From contig NZ_JAJNDA010000004.1 in assembly GCF_021026295.1 (NCBI RefSeq), forward strand, positions 248,001-312,000: a stretch of 64,000 bases of DNA, read 5' to 3'. Each line of letters starts with the position of its first letter. The first letter of the stretch is position 1. The translations under genes and the position numbers were made by a program. This DNA is from Actinomycetospora soli. GTDB lineage: Bacteria > Actinomycetota > Actinomycetes > Mycobacteriales > Pseudonocardiaceae. The notes beneath the pieces were generated by a model that made no database searches, was not told the DNA's origin, and saw only the letters and a list, made by a program, of their open reading frames with translations. Of this stretch, positions 15,666 to 31,525 are shown in pieces.

Positions 15666-15946
15666 GACGAGCTCCTCGAGAACCACAGGGCGAGGTCGAA
15701 CGGGTTGAGGTCGTTGCTGCGCAGGGCGGCGGTCGCGAGCACCACCGCGTCGGTCGGGCTGAGATCCGTTCCCGACGGCGGGTCGTGCCCCTCCTCGGCG
15801 GCGACGGCCCAGCAGCGTCCGGCGACCCCGACGAGCCGGCGCGCCGTCCCCGGCGGGAGCTTCGCGATCGCCCCGTCGTCGAGCCCCGCCGCGATCTCGG
15901 CCTCGAGCTCGGCGACCAGCGCGTCGATGTGCTCAGACCGTGACAC
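15662..15946 (-). CDS. Small hypothetical protein between amidohydrolase and Rieske genes
   Basis: A 94-residue, largely helical, acidic protein with no recognised domain. It starts at GTG 15946, overlaps the end of the Rieske gene by 14 bp, and its stop overlaps the amidohydrolase start, so all three are probably translated together. The C-terminus DLNPFDLALWFSRSS is hydrophobic. Residues DPPSGTD are encoded by the dispersed TTCCCGACGGCGGGTC element at 15769-15785. It may be a partner subunit of the hydrolase. Confidence 0.7.
   Translation of the reverse strand: MSRSEHIDALVAELEAEIAAGLDDGAIAKLPPGTARRLVGVAGRCWAVAAEEGHDPPSGTDLSPTDAVVLATAALRSNDLNPFDLALWFSRSSS
15769..15785. repeat. Copy of dispersed TTCCCGACGNCGGGTC element inside the 94-residue gene
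   Basis: The bases ttcccgacggcgggtcg are in frame in the small gene and give DPPSGT on its coding strand. Confidence 0.6.
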
Positions 15947-16322
15947 GGATCCGGCCCTCCGCCTCGGCCACGTCGAAGCGCCGCAGCGAGGCGCCGGGCA
16001 CCCCGGGGTGGCGACCGGTCGTCACGTCGTACTCGTAGCCGTGCCAGGGGCAGACGACGTGCATCGTGTTCTCGTCGAACCGCATCCCGAGGCTGCGCTG
16101 CTCGGCGTCGAGGCGCTCGCGGACGCGGCTGATGATCCGGCCCTGGCACGCCGGCCCGCCCTGGTGGGCGCACACGTTCTCCCAGGCGTACAACCGGCCG
16201 CCGAACCGGAAGATCCCGAGCGTCGTCGTGCCGTCGATCTCCACGACGAGGCGGCCCCGCTCCGGCACGTCGTCCGACGCGGCGACGTCGACGTCCCGCG
16301 CCTCGGATGTGGTGGTGGTCAT
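15933..16322 (-). CDS. Rieske-type [2Fe-2S] protein
   Basis: A 129-residue soluble Rieske ferredoxin. The two cluster-binding boxes are CAHQGG (CXH) and CPWHGYEYD (CX2H), spaced as in Rieske ferredoxins and N-terminal oxygenase domains. There is no catalytic oxygenase domain or transmembrane helix, so it is probably an electron carrier for a partner oxygenase or for the amidohydrolase module. ATG 16322 is chosen over an upstream in-frame ATG that would run through the divergent promoter. It is the first gene of the leftward operon opposite the LysR gene. Confidence 0.85.
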   Translation of the reverse strand: MTTTTSEARDVDVAASDDVPERGRLVVEIDGTTTLGIFRFGGRLYAWENVCAHQGGPACQGRIISRVRERLDAEQRSLGMRFDENTMHVVCPWHGYEYDVTTGRHPGVPGASLRRFDVAEAEGRIRVTV

Positions 16323-19809: not shown

Positions 19810-20478
19810 TCAGCCGGCGAGGGCCACCGCCGCCCGGTACCGCTCCACGAGCAGCGACGCCACCGCCGGGTGGTCGCCCAGCGGGTCGGCGACCACGGCG
19901 GCGGCCACCCCGCACGCCCACCGGTGGAACACCCCCGGCGCGAGCAGCCACGTCAGCAGCGCGACCGGCCCGTCCTGCGCGCCCACGACCTCGGCGAGCC
20001 GGGGGTCGCCGCCCGCCACGTAGCCGACCGGGACCTCGCCGCCGAGCCGCTCCCCCACGAGCGCGGCCGCCGTCCGCAGGTCGGCCTGCGCCACCGGGTC
20101 CGTCGACCCGGCCGCGGCGAGCACCACCTGCTCACCGCCCCACCCGGCGTCGCGCAGCCGGTCCAGGGCCGCGTCGACGAGCACCGGGTCGGGCCCGAGC
20201 GGGTCGGTCACCCGCACGTCGGTGCGGCCCAGCGCGGCCAGCTGCTCGGGCACGTCGCGGCGCACGTGGAACCCCGAGGCCAGGAACGCCGGCACCACGA
20301 CGACGGGTCCCTCGTCCAGCTTCGGCAGCAGGTCCGCCAGCTGCGGACGCGCGACGCCCGCCCAGGCCAGCCGCACGCCTGCGTCGGGGACGAGCGACCG
20401 CACCCGCGTGAGCAGCGCACCCCAGGTGGCCCGGCCCGCCGGGTCGTTCGTGCCGTGCGCGAGCACCACCAGCGTCAT
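19810..20478 (-). CDS. Sirohydrochlorin chelatase (CbiX/SirB type)
   Basis: A 222-residue class II chelatase with the N-terminal LAHGTND catalytic His (H8) and the internal GFHVRRDVP motif, with two CbiX-like halves in one chain. It should insert ferrous iron into sirohydrochlorin to make sirohaem; cobalt insertion is the alternative. Its ATG overlaps the stop of the HemD gene. Placement at the end of narK-nirBD-hemD supports a role in supplying sirohaem to NirB. Confidence 0.85.
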   Translation of the reverse strand: MTLVVLAHGTNDPAGRATWGALLTRVRSLVPDAGVRLAWAGVARPQLADLLPKLDEGPVVVVPAFLASGFHVRRDVPEQLAALGRTDVRVTDPLGPDPVLVDAALDRLRDAGWGGEQVVLAAAGSTDPVAQADLRTAAALVGERLGGEVPVGYVAGGDPRLAEVVGAQDGPVALLTWLLAPGVFHRWACGVAAAVVADPLGDHPAVASLLVERYRAAVALAG

Positions 20479-21293
20479 CGCGAGGCCACGTGCTCCTCCA
20501 GCCGCTTCACCATCGCGCCGAGCCGGAAGCGCTCCGGCGCGATCGACGGGACGTCGAGCCGGTCGAGCGGGGCCGCCGTCACCGGGCCGACCGCGCACGC
20601 GAGCACCCCGCCCCGCAACGCGCCGAGCAGGTCGTCCCGACGGCCCACCGCCTCCGCCCGGTGCACCAGCCCCTCGACGGCCGGGGCCGAGGTGAAGGTG
20701 ACCGCGTCGACGTCCCCGGCGATCACGGCCTCGATGAGCGCGTCGACCGCGGGCAGGTCCGGCGGCGGCTCCCACCGGTAGACGTGCACCTCGACGACGT
20801 CGGCGCCCGCCTCGCGCAGGGCGCCGAGGAACGACGTCATCGGGTCACCGTGCAGCTGCACCGCGACCCGCCGCCCGGACACCCCCACGGCGAGCAGGTG
20901 CTCCAGCACCTCCGGCGACGACTCGGTCTCGTCGGCCGACCACGCCTCGCGGAACCCGGCACCGCGGATCGCGCCGCGCGCCTTCGGGCCCCGCGCGAGC
21001 AGCTCGGCGTCGGTGAGGACCGCCCGCAGCCGCTCCCCGAGGCCCCACTCGTCGGCCACCTCGAGCCAGCCGCGGAACCCCTGTCCGGTGGTGGCGACGA
21101 CGACGTCGGGCGGCGCGTCCAGCAGCGTCCGCGTGGTGGCGGCCAGGTCCGAGTCGTCGGCCAGCGGGACGATCCGCATCGTCGGGCCGTGCACGGTCGT
21201 CGCGCCCTTGCGGTGGAGCAGTTCGATCTGGTCGTCGGCGCGACGGTCCGCCGTCACGCCCACCCGCAGCCCGGCCAGGGGGCCCTCCGTCAT
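20475..21293 (-). CDS. hemD: Uroporphyrinogen-III synthase
   Basis: A 272-residue two-domain HemD protein (GLRVGVTADRRADDQIELLHRKGATTVHGPTMRI at the N-terminus, DAVTFTSAPAVEGL in the second domain). It closes hydroxymethylbilane to uroporphyrinogen III, the branch point for haem, sirohaem and cobalamin. Actinobacterial nitrite operons often carry such a HemD, sometimes with an extra winged helix; none is attached here. ATGA overlaps join it to nirD upstream and the chelatase downstream, so it is a dedicated sirohaem-supply copy in the nitrite operon. Confidence 0.88.
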   Translation of the reverse strand: MTEGPLAGLRVGVTADRRADDQIELLHRKGATTVHGPTMRIVPLADDSDLAATTRTLLDAPPDVVVATTGQGFRGWLEVADEWGLGERLRAVLTDAELLARGPKARGAIRGAGFREAWSADETESSPEVLEHLLAVGVSGRRVAVQLHGDPMTSFLGALREAGADVVEVHVYRWEPPPDLPAVDALIEAVIAGDVDAVTFTSAPAVEGLVHRAEAVGRRDDLLGALRGGVLACAVGPVTAAPLDRLDVPSIAPERFRLGAMVKRLEEHVASR

Positions 21294-21658
21294 GGGCTGC
21301 CGACCTCCACCGTCCCGTTCACCACCCGCACAGGATAGGTCGCCACCCCGACACCGGAGTCCTCCAGCGCCCGGCCGGTCTCCAGCGCGAAGTGCTGCTT
21401 GTACAGCGGCGAGGCCACCACCGGTGTCCCGCCGAGGTCCCCGACGATGCCGCGCGAGAGCACCGAGGCGTGCGAGAACGGGTCGACGTTGTGCAGGGCG
21501 AACAGCCGGTCGTCGTGGGTCCGGAAGACCGCCACCGGCTCCCCCGCCACCAGGGCGCACACCCCGCGCTCCGGCTGGAGCCGCTCCAGCGGGCAGACGG
21601 GCGTCCACCCCGTTCCCGACGACGGGTCGGTGCCGGTGCGTTCGTCGAGTGCGGTCAT
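21290..21658 (-). CDS. nirD: Nitrite reductase (NADH) small subunit
   Basis: A 122-residue Rieske-fold subunit (VCPLERLQPERGVCALVAGEPVAVF, LFALHNVDPFSHASVLSRGIVGD, ASPLYKQHFALETG). As in other NirD proteins the usual Cys/His cluster ligands are largely absent, so it is structural. It pairs with NirB in the cytoplasm. The first 17 residues contain TDPSSGTG, encoded by the dispersed element at 21613-21630, which lengthens the N-terminus relative to typical NirD. Both ends overlap neighbouring genes by ATGA. Confidence 0.92.
   Translation of the reverse strand: MTALDERTGTDPSSGTGWTPVCPLERLQPERGVCALVAGEPVAVFRTHDDRLFALHNVDPFSHASVLSRGIVGDLGGTPVVASPLYKQHFALETGRALEDSGVGVATYPVRVVNGTVEVGSP
21613..21630. 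repeat. Copy of dispersed TTCCCGACGNCGGGTC element at the nirD 5' end
   Basis: The bases ttcccgacgacgggtcgg, read on the minus strand, encode TDPSSGT in the N-terminal tail of NirD. Confidence 0.65.
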
Positions 21659-24228
21659 GCGGGGGCTCCCATCGGGATCCGGGCGCCGTCGGTGATCGGC
21701 ACCCCGCCCAGGCCGAGGGCGGCGAGGTCGGTGGGCTGGCCGTCCTTCATCCCGGCGGGGACCCGGCGGCCGAGGTGGTCGACGAACTCGATCGTCGGGT
21801 CGGGCACGCCCGGCGCGTTGACGAACGAGGTGAACCGCGCGAGCTTCTCCGGGTCGTCGAGCACGGCGGCCCACTCGTCGGCGTAGCCCGCGACGTGCGC
21901 CGCCATCTGCTCGTCGAGCGCGGCGCAGATCCCCAGCGAGTCGTCCATGATCACCGCGCGGAGGTGGTCGATGCCGCCCTCGAGCGACTCGATCCACGGC
22001 GCCGTGCGCTGCAGCCGGTCGGCGGTGCGGACGTAGAACATGAGGAACCGGTCGATCGTGCGCACCAGCGTCGTCGTGTCCAGGTCGGAGGCGATCAGCT
22101 CCGCGTGCCGCGGGGTGAACCCGCCGTTGCCGCCCAGGTAGAGGTTCCACCCGGTCTCGGTGGCGATGACGCCGAAGTCCTTCGAGCGGGCCTCGGCGCA
22201 CTCGCGGGCGCAGCCCGACACCCCGGACTTCAGCTTGTGCGGCGAGCGCAGCCCCCGGTAGCGCAGCTCGAGCGCGACGGCGAGCCCCACCGAGTCCTGC
22301 ACGCCGTAGCGGCACCAGTCGGTGCCCACGCACGACTTCACCGTCCGCAGCGACTTGCCGTAGGCGTGGCCGGACTCGAACCCGGCGTCGACCAGCCGCC
22401 GCCAGATCGCCGGCAGGTCGTCGACGCGCGCGCCGAACAGGTCGATCCGCTGCCCGCCGGTGATCTTCGTGTAGAGCCCGAAGTCCCGCGCCACCTCCCC
22501 GATCGCGATGAGCCCGTCCGGCGTGACCTCCCCGCCGGGCAACCGCGGGACCACCGAGTAGGTGCCGTTGCGCTGCATGTTCGCGAGGAAGTGGTCGTTG
22601 GTGTCCTGCAGCGTCGCGGACTCGCCGTCGAGCACGTGCCCGCCGGCGAGCGTGGCGAGCATCGAGGCGACGGCGGGCTTGCAGACGTCGCAGCCGCGCC
22701 CGGTCCCGTACTGCGCGACGATCTCGCTGAACGTGGTCGATCCGGTCACGCGGATGATCTCGTAGAGCTCCGCGCGCGACCGGGTGAAGTGCTCGCAGAG
22801 GGCCGTCGACACCTCGACGCCGCAGCTCGCGAGCACCTTCGCGAGCGTCGGGACGCACGAGCCGCACGTGGTGCCCGCCCGGGTGCACGCCTTGAGCTGC
22901 GGCACGGTGGTGGCCTCGCCGGACGAGATCGCCTCGACGAGCGCGCCCTTGGTCACCGCGTTGCAGGAGCAGATCTGGGCCGCGTCGGGCAGGGCCTCGA
23001 ACCCCACGGCCTCCCCGCCGGCGGGCGCGATCAGCGACATGGGGTCGCCCGGCAGCTCCGCGCCCAGGAACCCGCGGAGCGTGTCGTAGTCCGAGGCGTC
23101 GCCGACGAGGACGCCGCCGAGCAGGGTCCGCGCGTCGTCGGAGACGACGAGCTTCGCGTAGGTCCCGGCCACCGGGTCGTCCAGCGTCACCTCGAGGGCG
23201 CCCGGCGTCGCGGCGTGGGCGTCGCCGAAGCTCGCGACGTCGACCCCGAGCAGCTTGAGCTTCGTCGACAGGTCGGCCTCGGTGAAGCGGCCGTCCCCGC
23301 CGGTGAGGCGCTCGGCGACCACCTCGGCCATGGCGTAGCCGGGCGCGACGAGGCCGTAGGTGCGGCCCCTCACCGCCGCCACCTCGCCGATCGCCCAGAC
23401 GTGCTCCGCGGAGGTGCGGCAGCGGTCGTCGACCAGCACCCCGCCGCGCTCGCCGACCTCGAGACCGGCCGCGCGGGCCAGGGCGTCCGCGGGTCGGATG
23501 CCGGCGGAGAACACGACGACCGAGGCGTCGAGCTCGGTCCCGTCGGAGAGCGTGACGGTGAGCCCGCCGCGGTGGTCGCGGGCGATCGAGCTCGTGGACA
23601 CGCCGGTGTGCACGCGCAGCCCGAGGTCGGACACGAGCCGCTGCAGCAGCGCCCCGCCGCCCTCGTCGACCTGGACCGGCATGAGCCGGGGCGCCATCTC
23701 CACGACGTGCGGCGACAGGCCCAGCCGGCGCAGCGCGTTCGCGGCCTCCAGCCCGAGCAGCCCGCCGCCGACGACCACGCCGGCCCGGCGACCCGCGCCC
23801 GCCGTCGAGACCGCCCGCTGCGCCGCGGCGCGCAACCCGTCGAGGTCGTCGAGCGTGCGGTAGACGAAGACGTGCTCGAGGTCCCGGCCGGGTACCGGCG
23901 GGACGAACGGGACGCTGCCGGTGGCGAGGACCAGCTCGTCGTAGGCGACGTCGCGGCCCTTCCCGGTGCGCACCGTGCGGGCCACCGGGTCGACCGCGGT
24001 GACCGGCTCGTCGAGGTGCAGCTCGACGCGCGGGTCGTGCCCGTCGAGCGTGAGGTCCTCGGCGGACGCGTCGCCCACGTAGGACGACAGGGCCACCCGG
24101 TCGTAGGCCGGCCGGTTCTCCTCGGCCAGCACGACGACGCGCCAGGTGCCGTCGGGGTCGAGCCGCCGCAGGCTCTCGACGAACCGGTGGCCGACCATCC
24201 CGTGGCCGACGACGACGACCGTCTTCAC
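21655..24228 (-). CDS. nirB: Nitrite reductase (NADH) large subunit
   Basis: An 857-residue flavo-sirohaem enzyme reducing nitrite to ammonium with NADH. In order it has an N-terminal FAD/NAD domain (VVVGHGMVGHRF; VVGGGLLGLEAA), a BFD-like [2Fe-2S] domain with CSCNAVTKGAL and CTRAGTTCGSC (about 415-465), and the nitrite/sulfite reductase half. That half carries sirohaem/4Fe-4S ligands in CVGTDWCRYG (about 632) and SGCARECAEARSKD (about 671). GTG 24228 has GGGAGA upstream. It is the second gene of the narK-nirBD-hemD-chelatase operon and is presumably under nitrogen control. Confidence 0.95.
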   Translation of the reverse strand: MKTVVVVGHGMVGHRFVESLRRLDPDGTWRVVVLAEENRPAYDRVALSSYVGDASAEDLTLDGHDPRVELHLDEPVTAVDPVARTVRTGKGRDVAYDELVLATGSVPFVPPVPGRDLEHVFVYRTLDDLDGLRAAAQRAVSTAGAGRRAGVVVGGGLLGLEAANALRRLGLSPHVVEMAPRLMPVQVDEGGGALLQRLVSDLGLRVHTGVSTSSIARDHRGGLTVTLSDGTELDASVVVFSAGIRPADALARAAGLEVGERGGVLVDDRCRTSAEHVWAIGEVAAVRGRTYGLVAPGYAMAEVVAERLTGGDGRFTEADLSTKLKLLGVDVASFGDAHAATPGALEVTLDDPVAGTYAKLVVSDDARTLLGGVLVGDASDYDTLRGFLGAELPGDPMSLIAPAGGEAVGFEALPDAAQICSCNAVTKGALVEAISSGEATTVPQLKACTRAGTTCGSCVPTLAKVLASCGVEVSTALCEHFTRSRAELYEIIRVTGSTTFSEIVAQYGTGRGCDVCKPAVASMLATLAGGHVLDGESATLQDTNDHFLANMQRNGTYSVVPRLPGGEVTPDGLIAIGEVARDFGLYTKITGGQRIDLFGARVDDLPAIWRRLVDAGFESGHAYGKSLRTVKSCVGTDWCRYGVQDSVGLAVALELRYRGLRSPHKLKSGVSGCARECAEARSKDFGVIATETGWNLYLGGNGGFTPRHAELIASDLDTTTLVRTIDRFLMFYVRTADRLQRTAPWIESLEGGIDHLRAVIMDDSLGICAALDEQMAAHVAGYADEWAAVLDDPEKLARFTSFVNAPGVPDPTIEFVDHLGRRVPAGMKDGQPTDLAALGLGGVPITDGARIPMGAPA

Positions 24229-24256: not shown

Positions 24257-25681
24257 TCACACGGACGCGTACGAGACCGCGGCGCCGGTGCCCGGGTCGG
24301 TCGCGGCCCGCGGACGGCGCATGTAGACGAGGTAGGTGACGGCGAAGCAGACGGCGTAGAAGGCGAGGAACGCCCAGAACGCGGGCACGCCGCTCTGCAC
24401 GGTGAGGAACGACTGGCGGAAGGCCAGGTTGATCAGCAGCCCGCCGAAGGCGCCGATCGCGCCCGCGATGCCGATCACCGCGCCCGAGACCCGCCGGGCC
24501 CACAGCAGCGCCGCGTCCGTGTCGGACGACGAGGACGAGGACGCGGACGCGAGGGCCTTCGTCCGGAAGATCGCCGGGATCATCTTGTAGACCGAGCCGT
24601 TGCCGATGCCCGAGGTGATGAACAGCAGCGTGAAGCCGACGACGAACAGCGCGAGCGACTGCTGCCCCGAGGCGACGATGCACACCAGGGTGGCGACGGC
24701 CATCGCGACGAAGTTCCAGAAGGTCACCCGCACGCCGCCGACGCGGTCGGAGAGCCGGCCGCCGACGGGGCGGATCAGGGAGCCGAGCAGCGGGCCGATG
24801 AAGGTGAGGGCGGCCGCCTGGAGCGGGGTGCGGCCGAACTGGTTCTGCAGCACGAGCCCGAACGCGAAGCTGTAGCCGATGAACGAGCCGAAGGTGCCGA
24901 TGTAGAGGAAGGAGATCACCCAGGTCTGGGCCTGGGTCGTCGCCTCCCTGAGCGCGCCGGTGTCGTTGCGGACCGAGCTCAGGTTGTCCATGAACAGCGC
25001 CGAGCACAGGGTCGCGAGGACGATCAGCGGGATGTAGATCCCGAGCAGGACGCGGATGCCGGTGACGCCGCCGCCCGCCGTGGCGAGGACGAGCAGGCCG
25101 AGCAGCTGGATCACCGCGACACCGAGGTTGCCGCCGCCCGCGTTGAGGCCGAGCGCCCAGCCCTTGTGCCGGTCGGGGAAGAAGGCGTTGATGTTCGTCA
25201 TCGACGAGGCGAAGTTGCCGCCGCCGACGCCCGCGATCGCGGCGAGCACCATGAGCGTCGTGTAGCTGACGCCGGGCTGGACGACGAACGCGGCGAGGAT
25301 CGTCGGGACCAGCAGCAGGGCCGCCGCGATGATCGACCAGTTCCGGCCGCCGAACACGGCCACGGCCATCGTGTAGGGCAGCCGCAGGAACGAGCCGACC
25401 AGGGTCGGCATCGCGACCAGGAAGAACTTGCCGGCGACGTCGAGCCCGAAGGCCTCGTTCGGCATGAACAGCACCACGACCGACCACAGGGTCCAGATCG
25501 AGAACCCGATGTGCTCGGAGAACACCGAGAACCACAGGTTGCGGTTCGCGACCCGCCGGCCGCCGCCCTGCCAGAACGCCTCGTCCTCGGGCCGCCAGTC
25601 GTCGATCCACCGGCCCCTGATCGACCCCTCGGACCTCGCGGACGGAGCATCCCCCGTCGCTGCGCTCGCCCCAGCCGTCAT
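24257..25681 (-). CDS. narK: Nitrate/nitrite transporter, NarK type (MFS)
   Basis: A 474-residue major-facilitator protein with about 12 hydrophobic segments. The nitrate-signature regions are AGVGGGNFASSMTNINAFFP and GIGNGSVYKMIPAIF, and both Gly-rich motifs typical of NarK/NrtP are visible. It should import nitrate or exchange nitrite across the inner membrane. A Ser-rich loop (ASASSSSSSDTDAALL) lies before the last helices. It is the first gene of the operon, 28 bp upstream of nirB, with its promoter somewhere in 25682-25821. No assimilatory nitrate reductase is in the window. Confidence 0.9.
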   Translation of the reverse strand: MTAGASAATGDAPSARSEGSIRGRWIDDWRPEDEAFWQGGGRRVANRNLWFSVFSEHIGFSIWTLWSVVVLFMPNEAFGLDVAGKFFLVAMPTLVGSFLRLPYTMAVAVFGGRNWSIIAAALLLVPTILAAFVVQPGVSYTTLMVLAAIAGVGGGNFASSMTNINAFFPDRHKGWALGLNAGGGNLGVAVIQLLGLLVLATAGGGVTGIRVLLGIYIPLIVLATLCSALFMDNLSSVRNDTGALREATTQAQTWVISFLYIGTFGSFIGYSFAFGLVLQNQFGRTPLQAAALTFIGPLLGSLIRPVGGRLSDRVGGVRVTFWNFVAMAVATLVCIVASGQQSLALFVVGFTLLFITSGIGNGSVYKMIPAIFRTKALASASSSSSSDTDAALLWARRVSGAVIGIAGAIGAFGGLLINLAFRQSFLTVQSGVPAFWAFLAFYAVCFAVTYLVYMRRPRAATDPGTGAAVSYASV

Positions 25682-25821
25682 CTCGTCCGCCCTCCGCCTC
25701 GCCGGGGGGCGCCCACCGGGGCGCCCCGTCTCGGCGGCGACGCTAGGAATCGGTCGTTACGCGGGAATGACGACGTGTGTCCGGGGAACGACGGAAGGAG
25801 AGCCGCCCGTCACGCGTGGGC

Positions 25822-26691
25822 TCAGAGCAGTTCGGTGATCACGCGCGCGGCGTGCTCGAGCCCCCGCAGCGACTCCTTGGTGCACGCCGGGTGCTGGGCG
25901 TGCACGGCGAGCCGGAAGAGCAGGCCGTGCAGCAGCATCTGCGGCCACTGGTCCAGGTGCGACCAGCGCGTCACGATCCCCGCGTCGGCCCCGCCCCAGG
26001 CGAGCGCGTCGACGACGACCACGGCCGCCGCCCACTCCACCGGCCGCCAGAACGGCACGAGGTCCAGGACGGCGGGCGGGGTCTGGTCCTCGCCGGCCCC
26101 GGGCCCCTCGAAGAGCACGGTGCCGAAGAGGTCGCCGTGCACGAGCTGCAACGGCAGCGTCGTCGACACCCGGCGGCGCACGAGCTCGGCGAACAGGTCG
26201 CCGCCGGTCTCGGGGTCGAGCGGGACGGTGCGCTCGCCGAACGCGGCGCGGTCGGCGCGGGCGAGGATGTCGTCGCGGTCGTCGACCAGGCGCGGGCGGG
26301 ACAGCCGGGCGGTGGCGCGGTGCAGGCGCAGCGACACGGCGACGACGTCGTCGTGGCGCGGCCGGACCTCCCCCGCGACGTCGTGGCAGGCCGACCAGCC
26401 CGAGACCACGCGGCGGCCGTCGGAGGCCCGGACGGGCCGGGCGAGGCGGATGCCGTCGACCCCGCCGGCAGCGAGCTCCTCCAGGGTCGCGGCCGACCAC
26501 GCGGCGAGCACGGTGTCCGAGACGGGGCGCAGCAGCACGCCGTCGCAGCTCCACGCCGGCCCGGGCAGGTGCGGCCGCGGGCGGGGCACGGAGTCCCGCA
26601 CACCGAAGGCGGTCCGGACGTGCAGCGGGGGCCCCTCGGGCTCCCCGGCCGCCGACGCCCCCTGCGACGAGCCCTGAGCCACCGCGGTCAT
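25822..26691 (-). CDS. TIGR02569-family actinobacterial protein
   Basis: A 289-residue protein of the actinobacterial TIGR02569 group. The pattern FGVRDSVPRP, LPGPAWSCDGVLLRPV at the N-terminus and LVHGDLFGTVLF, AVLDLVPFWRPVEWA further on recalls an aminoglycoside-phosphotransferase/kinase-like fold, with HGDL and LDL in place of the catalytic and metal motifs. Function is unknown. It starts at ATG 26691 and stands alone between narK and menC on the same strand. Confidence 0.8.
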   Translation of the reverse strand: MTAVAQGSSQGASAAGEPEGPPLHVRTAFGVRDSVPRPRPHLPGPAWSCDGVLLRPVSDTVLAAWSAATLEELAAGGVDGIRLARPVRASDGRRVVSGWSACHDVAGEVRPRHDDVVAVSLRLHRATARLSRPRLVDDRDDILARADRAAFGERTVPLDPETGGDLFAELVRRRVSTTLPLQLVHGDLFGTVLFEGPGAGEDQTPPAVLDLVPFWRPVEWAAAVVVVDALAWGGADAGIVTRWSHLDQWPQMLLHGLLFRLAVHAQHPACTKESLRGLEHAARVITELL

Positions 26692-27862: not shown

Positions 27863-29044
27863 ATGGACCGCACCCGCCCCGTCGAGGTCGTCGCCACCGA
27901 CGGGTCCGCCGCGGCGGCCCGCGCCCTCGGCGAGCGCCTGGTGGCCGCGGTGTCCGGGCACGGCCCGGCGATCCTCCCGACCGGTCCCGACGACCCGCTC
28001 CCGCCCCGCCGGCTGACCGCTCCGGTCGCGCCCGGGGTCGCCGCCGTCGTGACGACCTCCGGGTCGACCGGCGTGCCCAAGGCCGTCCTGCTCAGCGGCA
28101 CCGCGCTCGCTGCCTCCGCGGTGTCGACGGCCGCCCGGCTCGGCGGCGAGGGCCGCTGGCTGCTCGCGCTGCCCGCCCACCACGTCGCGGGGGTGCAGGT
28201 GCTGCTGCGCTCGGCCCGCGCGGGCGTGCCGGCCGCGGTGATGGACCTGCGCGAGGGCTTCCGGCCGGACGCGTTCGCCGCGGCGGTGCGGGCCGCCGAC
28301 CCGGCGGTCTCGCGGCTCTCCCTGGTGCCCACCCAGCTGCGGCGGCTGCTCGACGACGCCGACCACGGGGGCGGCGCGGGCCTGGACGCGCTCCGCCGGT
28401 TCGGCGCCGTGCTGCTCGGCGGGGCGGCCGCCGAGGCCGCGCTGCTGGAACGGGCCCGGACGGCGGGCGTGCGGGTGGTCACGACCTACGGCATGAGCGA
28501 GACCTGCGGCGGCTGCGTGTACGACGGCGTGCCGCTGGACCGGGTCGGCGTCGAGATCGAGGACCCGGACCCGTCCGGCGCCGGACGGATCGTGCTCGGC
28601 GGCGCGACGGTGGCCGACGGCTACCAGGGGCTGGACGACCCCGCGTTCCTCCCCGGACGGCGCTTCCGGACGTCCGACCTCGGACGGGTGGACCCCGACG
28701 GCCGGCTGACGGTGCTCGGCCGCGCCGACGACGTCATCGTCACCGGCGGGGAGAAGGTGCCGCCGGCGGTCGTCGAGCAGGCGCTCCTCGCGGTCCCCGG
28801 GGTGCGCGAGGCCTGCGTGGTCGGGGTCCCGGACGCCGAGTGGGGCGCGCGGGTGGTCGCCGTCGTCACCGGGGCCGGCCTGGAGCCCGACCTCGTGCGC
28901 GGGGCCGTCGCCGACCGGCTCGGCCGCGCCGCGCCGCGCGACGTGCGGGTGCTCGAGGAGCTGCCGCTGCGCGGGATCGGCAAGCCCGACCGCGCCGCGG
29001 TGCGTGATCTCTTCCACCCGTCCGCGGGGGCAACACCGACGTAA
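27863..29044 (+). CDS. menE: o-Succinylbenzoate-CoA ligase
   Basis: A 393-residue adenylate-forming enzyme, short as usual for actinobacterial MenE. It shows the P-loop TTSGSTGVPKAV (about 64-75), LPAHHVAG, TYGMSETCGG, the hinge FRTSDLGRVDPDG and the C-terminal catalytic Lys in GIGKPDRAAV. It activates o-succinylbenzoate to its CoA ester for MenB. ATG 27863 is the second Met codon of the open frame; the first, a few codons earlier, has no better ribosome site. The regulator/reductase fusion gene follows after 15 bp. Confidence 0.9.
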   Translation: MDRTRPVEVVATDGSAAAARALGERLVAAVSGHGPAILPTGPDDPLPPRRLTAPVAPGVAAVVTTSGSTGVPKAVLLSGTALAASAVSTAARLGGEGRWLLALPAHHVAGVQVLLRSARAGVPAAVMDLREGFRPDAFAAAVRAADPAVSRLSLVPTQLRRLLDDADHGGGAGLDALRRFGAVLLGGAAAEAALLERARTAGVRVVTTYGMSETCGGCVYDGVPLDRVGVEIEDPDPSGAGRIVLGGATVADGYQGLDDPAFLPGRRFRTSDLGRVDPDGRLTVLGRADDVIVTGGEKVPPAVVEQALLAVPGVREACVVGVPDAEWGARVVAVVTGAGLEPDLVRGAVADRLGRAAPRDVRVLEELPLRGIGKPDRAAVRDLFHPSAGATPT

Positions 29045-29059
29045 CGGCGGGGTGGTGCC

Positions 29060-31525
29060 ATGGTCGGCGTGCACCTGCTCGTGCTGACCGGGGCGGCCAC
29101 GGTGGACGAGCTGCTGCCCGGCCTCGCACTGCTCCCCGACCACCGGGTGACCCTCGGCGCGCTCACCGCGGCCGACGCGGTGACCTCGGCGGTCGACGTC
29201 GACCTCGTCGTCCTCGACGCCCGCACCCGCCCGTTCGCGGCCGCCGGACTCGCCGCCGCGGTCGACGCCGTGCGCCCGGGCCTCCCCGTGGCGGTCGTCG
29301 TCGGGCCGGACGCGGCCTTCCCGGTGGAGGACGCGGCGCCGGTCGACGCCCTGCTGCTGCCCGACGCGTCCCCGGCCGAGGTCGCGGCGCGCCTGCGTCT
29401 GGCCGCCCGACCGGTGCCGCCCGCCCCGCGCGCCCGCCGCGGCCGGCGTGCGGACCTGCCCCCGCCCGGCGCGCTCGTGGTGGACGAGCTGGTCGTCGAC
29501 ACGGTCGCCTTCCAGGCCTGGTTCGCGGGCCGCCCGCTCCCGCTCGCCCGCCGGGAGCTGCAACTGCTCGCCGCCCTCGCCGCGCGGCCCGGGCGCCCGC
29601 TGACCCGGGCCGCCCTGCTGCACCTCGTCTGGGGTCCGGGCCACACCGGCAGCGCCCGGACCGTCGACGTCCACGTCCGGGCCCTGCGCCGCGCCCTGGG
29701 GCCCGGCCGCGACCTGATCCGCACCCTGCACGGCACCGGTTACGCGCTCCACCCGACCGGTGCCCCCGCTCGAGCCCGCACCGCGCCGCCCCCGCGGACG
29801 GCCGCGCCGCTGCGCCCGGAGGAGGCACTCACGGCCCCGTCCGCGCCGGGCCGCCCGGGCGGGCGGGACGCGCCGGGCGACGTCGTCGCGAGCAAGCGCG
29901 CCGGGCTGCCCCTCGACCCCGACGCCGTGACCGCGGGCCGGCTCGGCGCCCTCGAGCGGTACAGCCTCAAGACGCTCGGGGCCTGCTCGGAGCGCGACGA
30001 CGGGCGGTTCCTGCTGCGCGCCCGGACCCGGGGACGCCTGCCGATCGCCGCCGCCCGCGCGCTCGCCGCCCTCCTGCGCGAGCGCGACCTCGGCCCCGTG
30101 CACCTGACCACCCGCCAGCAGCTCGAGCTGCACGGCGTGCCGGCGGCACGGGTCGTCGACACCCTCGACGCCTTGCACGCGGCGGGCCTGGACACGACGG
30201 CGACCTGCGGCCACACCGTGCGCGGGGTGACGAGCTGCCCGGACGCGGCCGTCTCCGCGGAGGAGCCGTTCGACGGCACCGCCGACGCAGAGCTGCTGAC
30301 CGATTCGCTGCTGCGGCTCGGTCCGGAGCTGAACACGCGCCTGCCGCAACGGTTCACGGTGGGGCTCGGCGGCTGCCCCGGATGTCGCGCCCAGGCCAAG
30401 GTCTCCGACGTCGGGCTCGTGTCGGTCCTCGACGGGGCAGGCCGTCCCGGCTACGAGCTGTGGGTCGGCGGCGGGCTCGGCCGGTCGCGCCCGACGCTCG
30501 CGACCCGGCTCACCGGGTTCGTGGCCCGCGCCGACCTGCTCCCGGCGGTGCACGCCGTGCTCGCCGTGTTCCTCGCGCACGGCGCGTTCGAGACCCCGAA
30601 CCGCGCCCGCCTCAAGTTCCTGGTGGCCCGGCTCGGTGTCGACCGCTTCCGGGCCCTGGTCGCCGAGGCGGAGGCCGAGCTGCGCGACCGCCCCTGGCCG
30701 GCCCCACCACCGGTCGACGTGCGCGCCCCGGGCGTCCCCGACGGACCGGCCCCGCGCCACGGGTGGGGCGACGACGTGCGCCCGCAGCGCACGCCGGGCC
30801 TCGCCACCGTCACGGTCACCGTCCCGTTCGGCACCCTCGGCGCGGACGCGCTCGACGTGCTCGCCGACCTCGCGCCCGGCCCGCTCCGGCTGACCCGCGA
30901 GCAGAACGTCGTGGTACACGACGTGCCCGTCGCCGACGTCGAGGCGCTCGCCGCGCGGGTGGCGGCCGTCGGGCTGGCCGTCCACACCGACCGCCCCGCC
31001 CGCGACGTCCGGGCCTGCGTGGGCACCGCGTCCTGCGCGCTCGCCATCACACCGACCCGCGACCTCGCCCGGGCCCTCTGGCACCTGCCGGCCCTGCGCC
31101 GGAACTCGGGCGTGGCCGTCAGCGTCTCCGGGTGCCCCGCCTCGTGCGCCCGCCACCAGGCGGCGGACCTCGGGCTGGCCGGGAACCTCGTGTCGCTGCG
31201 CGGGCGCCGCGTCCCGGGCTACCGGGTGCACCTCGGCGGGGACCTCGGGCGCGACCGGCTGGGCACGGTGCTCGGCCGGGTCGCCGCCGGGCAGGTCACC
31301 ACGCTCGTCGACCAGGTCGTGCGTACCTGGGAGGAGCTGCGGGTCGGGCACGAGTCGCTGGCCGACAGTGTCGACCGGACCGGGACGGAGCCGTTCGTCT
31401 CCGGGCTGCGGGGCCTGCCCGGGCTGGCCTGGGAGCCCGGCGACGACGAGTGCGCGGACCGTGTCCCGCCGCGGGCCGGGGTCGGTTCCCACGGTGGTCC
31501 GCGACCGGCATCCTCGGAGGTATGA
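29060..31525 (+). CDS. GlnR-like regulator fused to ferredoxin-type nitrite/sulfite reductase
   Basis: One uninterrupted 821-codon frame. Residues 1-120 resemble the atypical receiver of GlnR (HLLVLTGAATVDELLPGLALLP; D53 in VVLDART; VDALLLPDASPAEVAARLRLA) and lack the usual acidic pair. Residues about 140-235 form an OmpR-type winged helix (LARRELQLLAALAARPGRPLTRAALL, then RTVDVHVRALRRALG and HGTGYALHP). A Pro/Ala-rich linker (236-270) leads to a full nitrite/sulfite reductase (about 275-760) with LTTRQQLELHG, CGHTVRGVTSC and RLKFLVARLGVDRFR. Its sirohaem/4Fe-4S ligands are C653 and C659 (CVGTASC) and C692 and C696 (CPASC). It could be a sirohaem-based sensor-regulator or a self-regulating enzyme. 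It lies 15 bp after menE and overlaps the next gene. Confidence 0.88.
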   Translation: MVGVHLLVLTGAATVDELLPGLALLPDHRVTLGALTAADAVTSAVDVDLVVLDARTRPFAAAGLAAAVDAVRPGLPVAVVVGPDAAFPVEDAAPVDALLLPDASPAEVAARLRLAARPVPPAPRARRGRRADLPPPGALVVDELVVDTVAFQAWFAGRPLPLARRELQLLAALAARPGRPLTRAALLHLVWGPGHTGSARTVDVHVRALRRALGPGRDLIRTLHGTGYALHPTGAPARARTAPPPRTAAPLRPEEALTAPSAPGRPGGRDAPGDVVASKRAGLPLDPDAVTAGRLGALERYSLKTLGACSERDDGRFLLRARTRGRLPIAAARALAALLRERDLGPVHLTTRQQLELHGVPAARVVDTLDALHAAGLDTTATCGHTVRGVTSCPDAAVSAEEPFDGTADAELLTDSLLRLGPELNTRLPQRFTVGLGGCPGCRAQAKVSDVGLVSVLDGAGRPGYELWVGGGLGRSRPTLATRLTGFVARADLLPAVHAVLAVFLAHGAFETPNRARLKFLVARLGVDRFRALVAEAEAELRDRPWPAPPPVDVRAPGVPDGPAPRHGWGDDVRPQRTPGLATVTVTVPFGTLGADALDVLADLAPGPLRLTREQNVVVHDVPVADVEALAARVAAVGLAVHTDRPARDVRACVGTASCALAITPTRDLARALWHLPALRRNSGVAVSVSGCPASCARHQAADLGLAGNLVSLRGRRVPGYRVHLGGDLGRDRLGTVLGRVAAGQVTTLVDQVVRTWEELRVGHESLADSVDRTGTEPFVSGLRGLPGLAWEPGDDECADRVPPRAGVGSHGGPRPASSEV

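Follow-up and report, generated by a model that had tools for sequence, protein, structure and literature searches.

The window analyzed here, a 64,000-nucleotide stretch of Actinomycetospora soli DNA, contains on its forward strand (29060-31525) a gene that joins a GlnR-like transcription regulator to a sirohaem nitrite/sulfite reductase in a single chain. The explanation that we prefer, holding belief and doubt in about equal measure, is that the protein is a one-chain regulator of nitrite assimilation, in which the reductase half serves as a sensor of nitrite, sirohaem, or redox state, and that it stands in for the regulator NnaR. The architecture, its conservation, the cofactor-ligand residues, the GlnR-type boxes, and the absence of the NnaR winged helix are read from the sequence itself.

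The gene is one uninterrupted frame of 821 codons, coding for 821 amino acids. The GTG codon at 29069 may be the true start, because relatives align from residue 4-5 onward. The full protein was searched with Pfam, which gave GlnR_1st, Trans_reg_C, NIR_SIR_ferr, and NIR_SIR, and every match was above its gathering score. The GlnR_1st domain, an atypical receiver, covers residues 5-115 (29072-29404; 56.9 bits, cut-off 27). The OmpR/PhoB-type winged helix covers residues 157-230 (29528-29749; Trans_reg_C 70.1 bits, cut-off 26.2) and aligns with the GlnR structures 8hih, 8hig, and 8hml. A conserved junction follows at residues 266-285 (29855-29914), and its KRAGLP part aligns to the N-terminus of stand-alone enzymes described below. 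The reductase half was assigned by Pfam and alignments to residues 279-785 (29894-31414); NIR_SIR_ferr (82.1 bits) and NIR_SIR (134 bits) each matched two stretches, from about residue 312, in a two-repeat arrangement. By sequence, the closest solved structures of the first 240 residues were the GlnR structures 8hih and 8hig, and those of the reductase half were M. tuberculosis NirA (1zj8) and plant nitrite reductase (NiR). The data confirmed the preliminary description of this DNA, which had reported a one-frame fusion of a GlnR-like domain, an OmpR-type winged helix, and a reductase, and the four sirohaem/4Fe-4S cysteines that it named (C653, C659, C692, and C696) were found at those positions, in the stretch 31016-31147. 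Its description of the reductase as complete calls for one minor reservation: the fusion has no equivalent of roughly the first 100 residues of M. tuberculosis NirA, and the match begins at NirA residue 101. The stand-alone relatives likewise lack these N-terminal residues.

The occurrence of the fusion was investigated in the genus and beyond it. The fusion was full length in 7 of the 18 Actinomycetospora genomes. The proteins of G002, G005, G013, and G017 were 83-84% identical to that of the window genome (G000), and those of G006 and G009 were 63-64% identical. In the divergent member L009 both halves scored above the family cut-offs, and in L010 the regulator half did so. The junction (residues 266-300) was 86-100% identical in five pairs compared, and the linkers 116-136 and 231-265 fell to 24-25% identity between G000 and G006. 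The ratio of nonsynonymous to synonymous change (pN/pS) in three pairs among the five close genomes was 0.08-0.24 for the GlnR domain, 0.34-0.35 for the winged helix, and 0.15-0.30 for the reductase halves; in the pair G006-G009 it was 0.47, 0.24, and 0.31, respectively. The fusion was not found in the other 11 genus genomes, 8 of which are at least 90% complete. Outside the genus, searches with the reductase half as query found no fusion in 200 genomes of the family (10 of which are Actinomycetospora), 246 genomes of the phylum, 394 genomes of the class (E 1e-75), or 66 genomes of the class to which G443 belongs; the samples share some genomes, and the larger searches scored only some candidates per genome. 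Plasmid records gave no match at E 1e-60.

The regulator half was compared with GlnR. The GlnR-like N-terminus proposed in the preliminary description was supported by the profile score and by the best solved matches given above. D53 and R55 of the fusion correspond to Asp50 and Arg52 of GlnR, and both Asp and Arg were present in all seven fusions, while the position of GlnR Thr9 was occupied by Thr in four and by Ser in three. According to excerpts of PMC10704036, Asp50, Arg52, and Thr9 form the charge network of the GlnR dimer. The recognition helix, ARTVDVHV, was identical in all seven fusions and is similar to that of GlnR. The fusion has in common with GlnR the GlnR_1st domain and winged helix, the Asp/Arg of the dimer network, and a similar recognition helix, but it differs in the reductase half that follows, in an identity of about 41% to the GlnR of the same genome, and in its presence alongside that GlnR. 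The latter is a separate, canonical protein (148 bits), and the fusion is not the free-standing GlnR orthologue. When 90 family genomes were searched for GlnR_1st, the only matches above 33 bits were canonical GlnR (at least 127 bits), a partial hit in G064 (96 bits), and the three fusions sampled (61-69 bits), with no other strong second GlnR domain. A recent duplication of the genus's own GlnR was not supported: when GlnR proteins from 18 of 30 loci (12 failed the motif filter) were compared, the fusions formed a separate long branch, and the two fusions for which identity was calculated showed 0.37-0.42 to each of the 18.

We analyzed the reductase half in a tree with stand-alone relatives and NirA-type reductases. 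The seven fusions (support 0.988) and 10 stand-alone proteins (0.987) were sister groups in a joint clade (1.0), apart from 37 NirA-type rows, which represent 36 distinct genes (L011 and L094 hold the same gene). One gene was read from L156, replacing the reading of L153 that gave no family. In a midpoint-rooted tree the nearest neighbours of the clade were four NirA-type rows (L051, L052, L054, and L055). The four sirohaem/4Fe-4S cysteines were invariant in the fusions, the stand-alone relatives, and all 37 NirA-type rows. The stretch 29984-30385 contains C309, C383, C393, C439, and C442, together with the anion-site positions R352, R388, R431, and T433. Position 309 was Cys in 17 of 17 clade members and Tyr in all 37 NirA-type rows. 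Positions 431 and 433 were Arg-Asn in all 10 stand-alone proteins, Arg-Thr or Arg-Ser in all seven fusions, and Lys-Lys in all 37 NirA-type rows, so that the Lys-x-Lys of the NirA active site is absent from the fusion. C383, C393, C439, and C442 were invariant in the clade; C383 was also present in 37 of 37 NirA-type rows, and C393 and C439 in 7 of 37. In the alignment plant NiR has Lys-x-Asn at 431/433, and the stand-alone enzymes therefore resemble NiR at the second position. We take these two columns to be those of the catalytic Lys224 and Asn226 of plant NiR, and C309 and C383 presumably sit at the place of the Tyr-Cys link of NirA (Tyr69/Cys161); literature searches gave no confirmation of either assignment. 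C309, C383, C393, C439, and C442, all in the N-half, might hold a further Fe-S cluster or include a Cys-Cys pair.

In comparison with the NirA-type reductase (1zj8) and plant NiR (3b0g), the fusion has the same two-repeat architecture, the four cysteines, and two anion-site Arg residues. It differs from the 37 NirA-type rows in the change of Tyr to Cys at 309, in Arg-x-Thr/Ser instead of Lys-x-Lys, and in C393, C439, and C442. The scores were below the curated cut-offs: 164.3 bits versus 594 for PRK09566, 163.5 versus 523 for PRK09567, and 111.4 versus 756.55 for CysI, and the reductase half fell below the NCBIfam cut-off of every reductase family listed. A CobG precorrin-3B synthase was rejected by its score (122.4 bits versus a TIGR02435 cut-off of 234.8), and a simple duplicate of NirA was rejected by the tree and the active-site columns. 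Judged by these comparisons of sequence, the reductase half is neither ordinary NirA nor CobG and belongs, with the stand-alone relatives, to a separate subfamily.

The stand-alone relatives were found in other classes of the phylum. Seven of 246 phylum genomes contained one, 42-46% identical over the reductase half including the junction, and so did 5 of 66 genomes of the class of G443, of which three were new and 48% identical. A Rieske gene adjoined the reductase gene in all 10 loci (Pfam on eight of the ten). A gene of the HemD-winged-helix (NnaR) type was present in the cluster in five loci (L068, L069, L156, L157, and L158), and none was found in L063-L067, in stretches of 8-19 kb. Other genes nearby coded for NasC-like nitrate reductases in L068 and L064 (678 and 796 bits, both under the 1100-bit cut-off), a formate/nitrite transporter in L156, a sirohaem synthase in L157, and, recognized by eye, NarK-like proteins in L068, L069, and L157. 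Because of these Rieske, NnaR-type, nitrate/nitrite, and sirohaem gene neighbours, the stand-alone relatives are probably nitrite reductases. They have the same cysteines as the fusion at 42-48% identity, but they lack a regulator domain, have a Rieske neighbour, and carry Asn rather than Thr/Ser at 433. With their further conserved cysteines they mark out a subfamily of reductases, of which we met no description in literature searches that were not directed at this subfamily specifically.

The nitrite genes of the window were also investigated. The preliminary description had placed nirBD about 4 kb from the fusion; nirB lies at 21655-24228, 4.8 kb away, and nirD at 21290-21658, beyond nirB. 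These genes belong to a reverse-strand operon that begins with a narK-type nitrate/nitrite transporter gene (24257-25681) and continues after nirD with hemD (20475-21293) and a sirB/cbiX-like sirohydrochlorin chelatase gene (19810-20478; 50.3 bits, below the cut-off of 120). narK was named by sequence recognition, nirB by recognition and gene order, and nirD by position and recognition. The order narK-nirB-nirD-hemD-sirB matches narK3-nirBD-nnaR-sirB of M. abscessus, in which, in the excerpted text of PMC11162112, the fourth gene codes for NnaR, a HemD domain with a winged helix. Excerpts of PMC11162112 and PMC6277429 describe NnaR as a partner of GlnR that is required for nitrate/nitrite use, and those of the former state that it co-activates nirB, narK, and nasA with GlnR and that its HemD domain is inactive in S. 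coelicolor.

The hemD gene of the window, at the position of nnaR, has no winged helix: it matched HEM4 only, and NF005568 at positions 7-277 of 381. A winged-helix profile showed that this part of HemD was absent in all 18 genus loci and present in 25 of 28 other family loci (all except L133, L143, and L146), the 28 being the best-scoring loci of a 60-genome search and not a random draw. Each genus genome gave one HemD match at E 1e-10. The fusion and the operon hemD were on the same contig, 7.8-8.6 kb apart, in all seven genomes, and the fusion is thus linked to narK-nirBD-sirB. This agrees with the preliminary description, which had raised an association with nitrogen genes: the narK-nirBD-hemD cluster accompanied the fusion in 7 of 7 genomes, and a formate/nitrite transporter gene was in the stretch examined in 5 of 7, absent from it in the window and L002. 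Orthologues of nirB (at least 80% identity) were present in 10 of the 18 genus genomes, all seven with the fusion and three without it, a distribution that is confounded by kinship. Like NnaR (Rv0260c, MSMEG_0432, SCO2958; excerpts of PMC11162112 and PMC6277429), the fusion joins an OmpR-type winged helix to a protein of the sirohaem pathway and is tied to narK-nirBD-sirB. However, in NnaR that protein is HemD and not a sirohaem reductase, the DNA-binding part is C-terminal, in the opposite order, and there is no GlnR receiver; the fusion gave no HEM4 match and so does not have the NnaR layout, in which one chain combines HemD and winged helix. We do not favour the idea that the winged helix of NnaR was relocated into the fusion, as GlnR_1st is found at the N-terminus and the helix is similar to the GlnR one. 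A HemD that lacks the winged helix was also found in genomes without the fusion, and therefore loss of the winged helix and gain of the fusion need not coincide.

The surroundings of the fusion gene were read for candidate GlnR-type boxes. The gene sits in a men block, with menC and menE upstream and menB downstream. The menE-menB interval of four non-fusion genomes (G001, G004, G007, and G016) contained no fusion. The contig of a fifth, G012, stops short of menB, and the gene finder mis-called menE in G012 and G016. A GlnR-type box, GCAAC-n6-GTAAC, is present upstream of the fusion on the forward strand (29030-29045), overlapping the menE stop codon, and a pattern search gave a second, GTCAT-n6-GTAAC, in the narK promoter on the reverse strand (25756-25771). 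The GlnR boxes given in excerpts of PMC10704036 are gTnAc-n6-GaAAc, with variants such as GAAAC-n6-GTATC. The pattern GNAAC-n6-GTNAY was found at most about 170 bp upstream of the fusion in all seven genomes and was absent between menE and menB in the four non-fusion genomes with the whole interval read. The sites in G006 and G009 are intergenic, and those in the five close genomes overlap the menE end. The pattern occurred 4 times in the 64-kb window versus 0.84 expected, and 1 of 100 shuffles reached 4. The narK promoter contained GTNAY-n6-GTARC in all seven fusion genomes and in three of five non-fusion genomes; the other two had only GNAAC-n5-GTNAY. The GTAAC form of the narK box occurred once in the window versus 0.06 expected, and 5 of 100 shuffles reached 1.

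In the explanation that we prefer, the GlnR-derived domain would dimerise the chain and the winged helix would bind GlnR-type boxes, with the fusion's own promoter and the narK-nirB-nirD-hemD-sirB operon as the likely targets. The reductase-derived half would hold sirohaem and a 4Fe-4S cluster and would report nitrite, sirohaem supply, or redox state by altering DNA binding. The fusion would thereby replace NnaR, the HemD-winged-helix co-activator of which the DNA-binding part is missing in the genus. The preliminary description had proposed that the reductase half may be the sensory module of a one-chain nitrogen or redox regulator, or that the enzyme may regulate its own synthesis, and its interpretation was supported in part. 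The reductase half is read as a signal input because the anion site is changed, a neighbouring Rieske gene was not found, NirB is retained, a box lies upstream, and the NnaR winged helix is absent. More tentatively, and leaning slightly towards doubt, we propose that a sirohaem/4Fe-4S nitrite-reductase fold serves as the sensor of a one-component transcription factor, standing in for NnaR after loss of its DNA-binding domain. The role of the HemD half of NnaR and the mode of NnaR activation are stated as open questions in excerpts of PMC11162112. The fusion is a second chimaera, of different build, in which an OmpR-type DNA-binding domain is joined to an enzyme of the sirohaem pathway. This suggests a signal role for sirohaem or for the state of its enzyme, an idea that can be tested on a single protein. 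We group the fusion with the NnaR kind of regulator-enzyme chimaera. No description of a fusion of GlnR with a reductase, or of a sirohaem reductase with a DNA-binding domain, was found in the open-access literature; most subscription papers and preprints were outside the search.

Several data weigh against this explanation. All the sirohaem/4Fe-4S cysteines and two anion-site Arg residues are kept, with Arg replacing the first Lys, and therefore activity may remain. Both the fusion and the NnaR winged helix are missing from eight of the 15 near-complete genomes of the genus, three of which have nirB. The winged-helix profile was built from only three seeds, and the box patterns were picked after the alignment had been viewed. 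The conservation of the upstream box is not independent in the close genomes, where it overlaps the end of menE, and the narK box, present also in non-fusion genomes, is therefore not a fusion-specific target; the canonical GlnR of the genus could itself use these boxes. Between clades pN/pS was higher (G000-G006: GlnR domain 0.65, winged helix 0.53, reductase 0.48). An AlphaFold2 model, made with four sequences, was too poor for use (mean predicted local distance difference test score 42.9, predicted template modelling score 0.30).

The main rival, to which we give a modest chance, is a trigger enzyme: the protein would be a working nitrite reductase with a second role in DNA binding, by which it adjusts its own expression and that of narK-nirBD. 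The conserved cluster cysteines and both anion-site Arg residues, the purifying selection on the reductase half within clades, and the nitrate/nitrite genes that adjoin several stand-alone relatives are consistent with catalysis. However, nirB is retained in 7 of 7 genomes, Asn has been replaced by Thr/Ser at position 433, and tblastn with a single Rieske protein as query, a search that also missed nirD, detected no Rieske gene next to the fusion. These three observations, the second a difference in the second anion-site residue and the third set against the Rieske gene that adjoins the reductase gene in all 10 stand-alone loci, also make a purely assimilatory duplicate, which the preliminary description had called redundant, less likely. 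A Rieske protein is encoded at 15936-16322 of the window, 13 kb from the fusion (44.5 bits), and is a conceivable, unproven electron donor.

We consider it unlikely, more so than a trigger enzyme, that the protein is a plain assimilatory reductase in which the regulatory half merely tethers or dimerises the chain or persists as a relic that does not bind DNA. Of the folded parts, GlnR_1st is the most variable between clades (52% identity between G000 and G006, versus 63% in the winged helix and 69-72% in the reductase halves), and its pN/pS of 0.47 in G006-G009 points the same way, but the recognition helix is identical in all seven fusions, pN/pS of the winged helix is 0.24-0.35 within clades, and a GlnR-type box lies upstream in 7 of 7. 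It is improbable that an internal start yields a separate reductase in addition to the long fusion: there are in-frame GTG codons further inside the gene, including residue 290 in G000 and G002, but in all seven genes the region from about residue 246 to 289 lacks an in-frame start codon, and the most widely shared start (about residue 360, 6 of 7) falls inside the reductase fold. An assembly or sequencing artefact that joined two genes, for which the preliminary description had looked to a stop or frameshift near 29760-29880, is refuted in practice, because the same joined frame is full length and without internal stops in seven genomes.

Other features were observed around the nitrite operon. 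A 289-amino-acid protein is encoded upstream of narK at 25822-26691 of the window; it has no Pfam match at E 0.01, and the other genus loci that were read have counterparts in the corresponding position. Many genus members have a cyanate hydratase gene (Cyanate_lyase and CYNS_N) beside the narK-hemD cluster, as at L058 13408-13860 and L088 9186-9638; similar genes were seen by eye in L059, L089, L090, L092, and L093, with a piece in L091, and the gene finder called none at that place in the window or L001-L003. The nirB orthologue at G008:C40:199845-202441 is in two overlapping pieces, which reflects a broken gene or an assembly fault. Five near-complete genomes without a close nirB orthologue (G001, G003, G004, G007, and G015) have hemD, a NasC-like nitrate reductase, and an adjoining distant NirB-like protein (38-40%), and narK is also kept in the loci read of the first four. 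Two HemD homologues were present in several family genomes (G020, G026, G065, and others), in some only a few kb apart.

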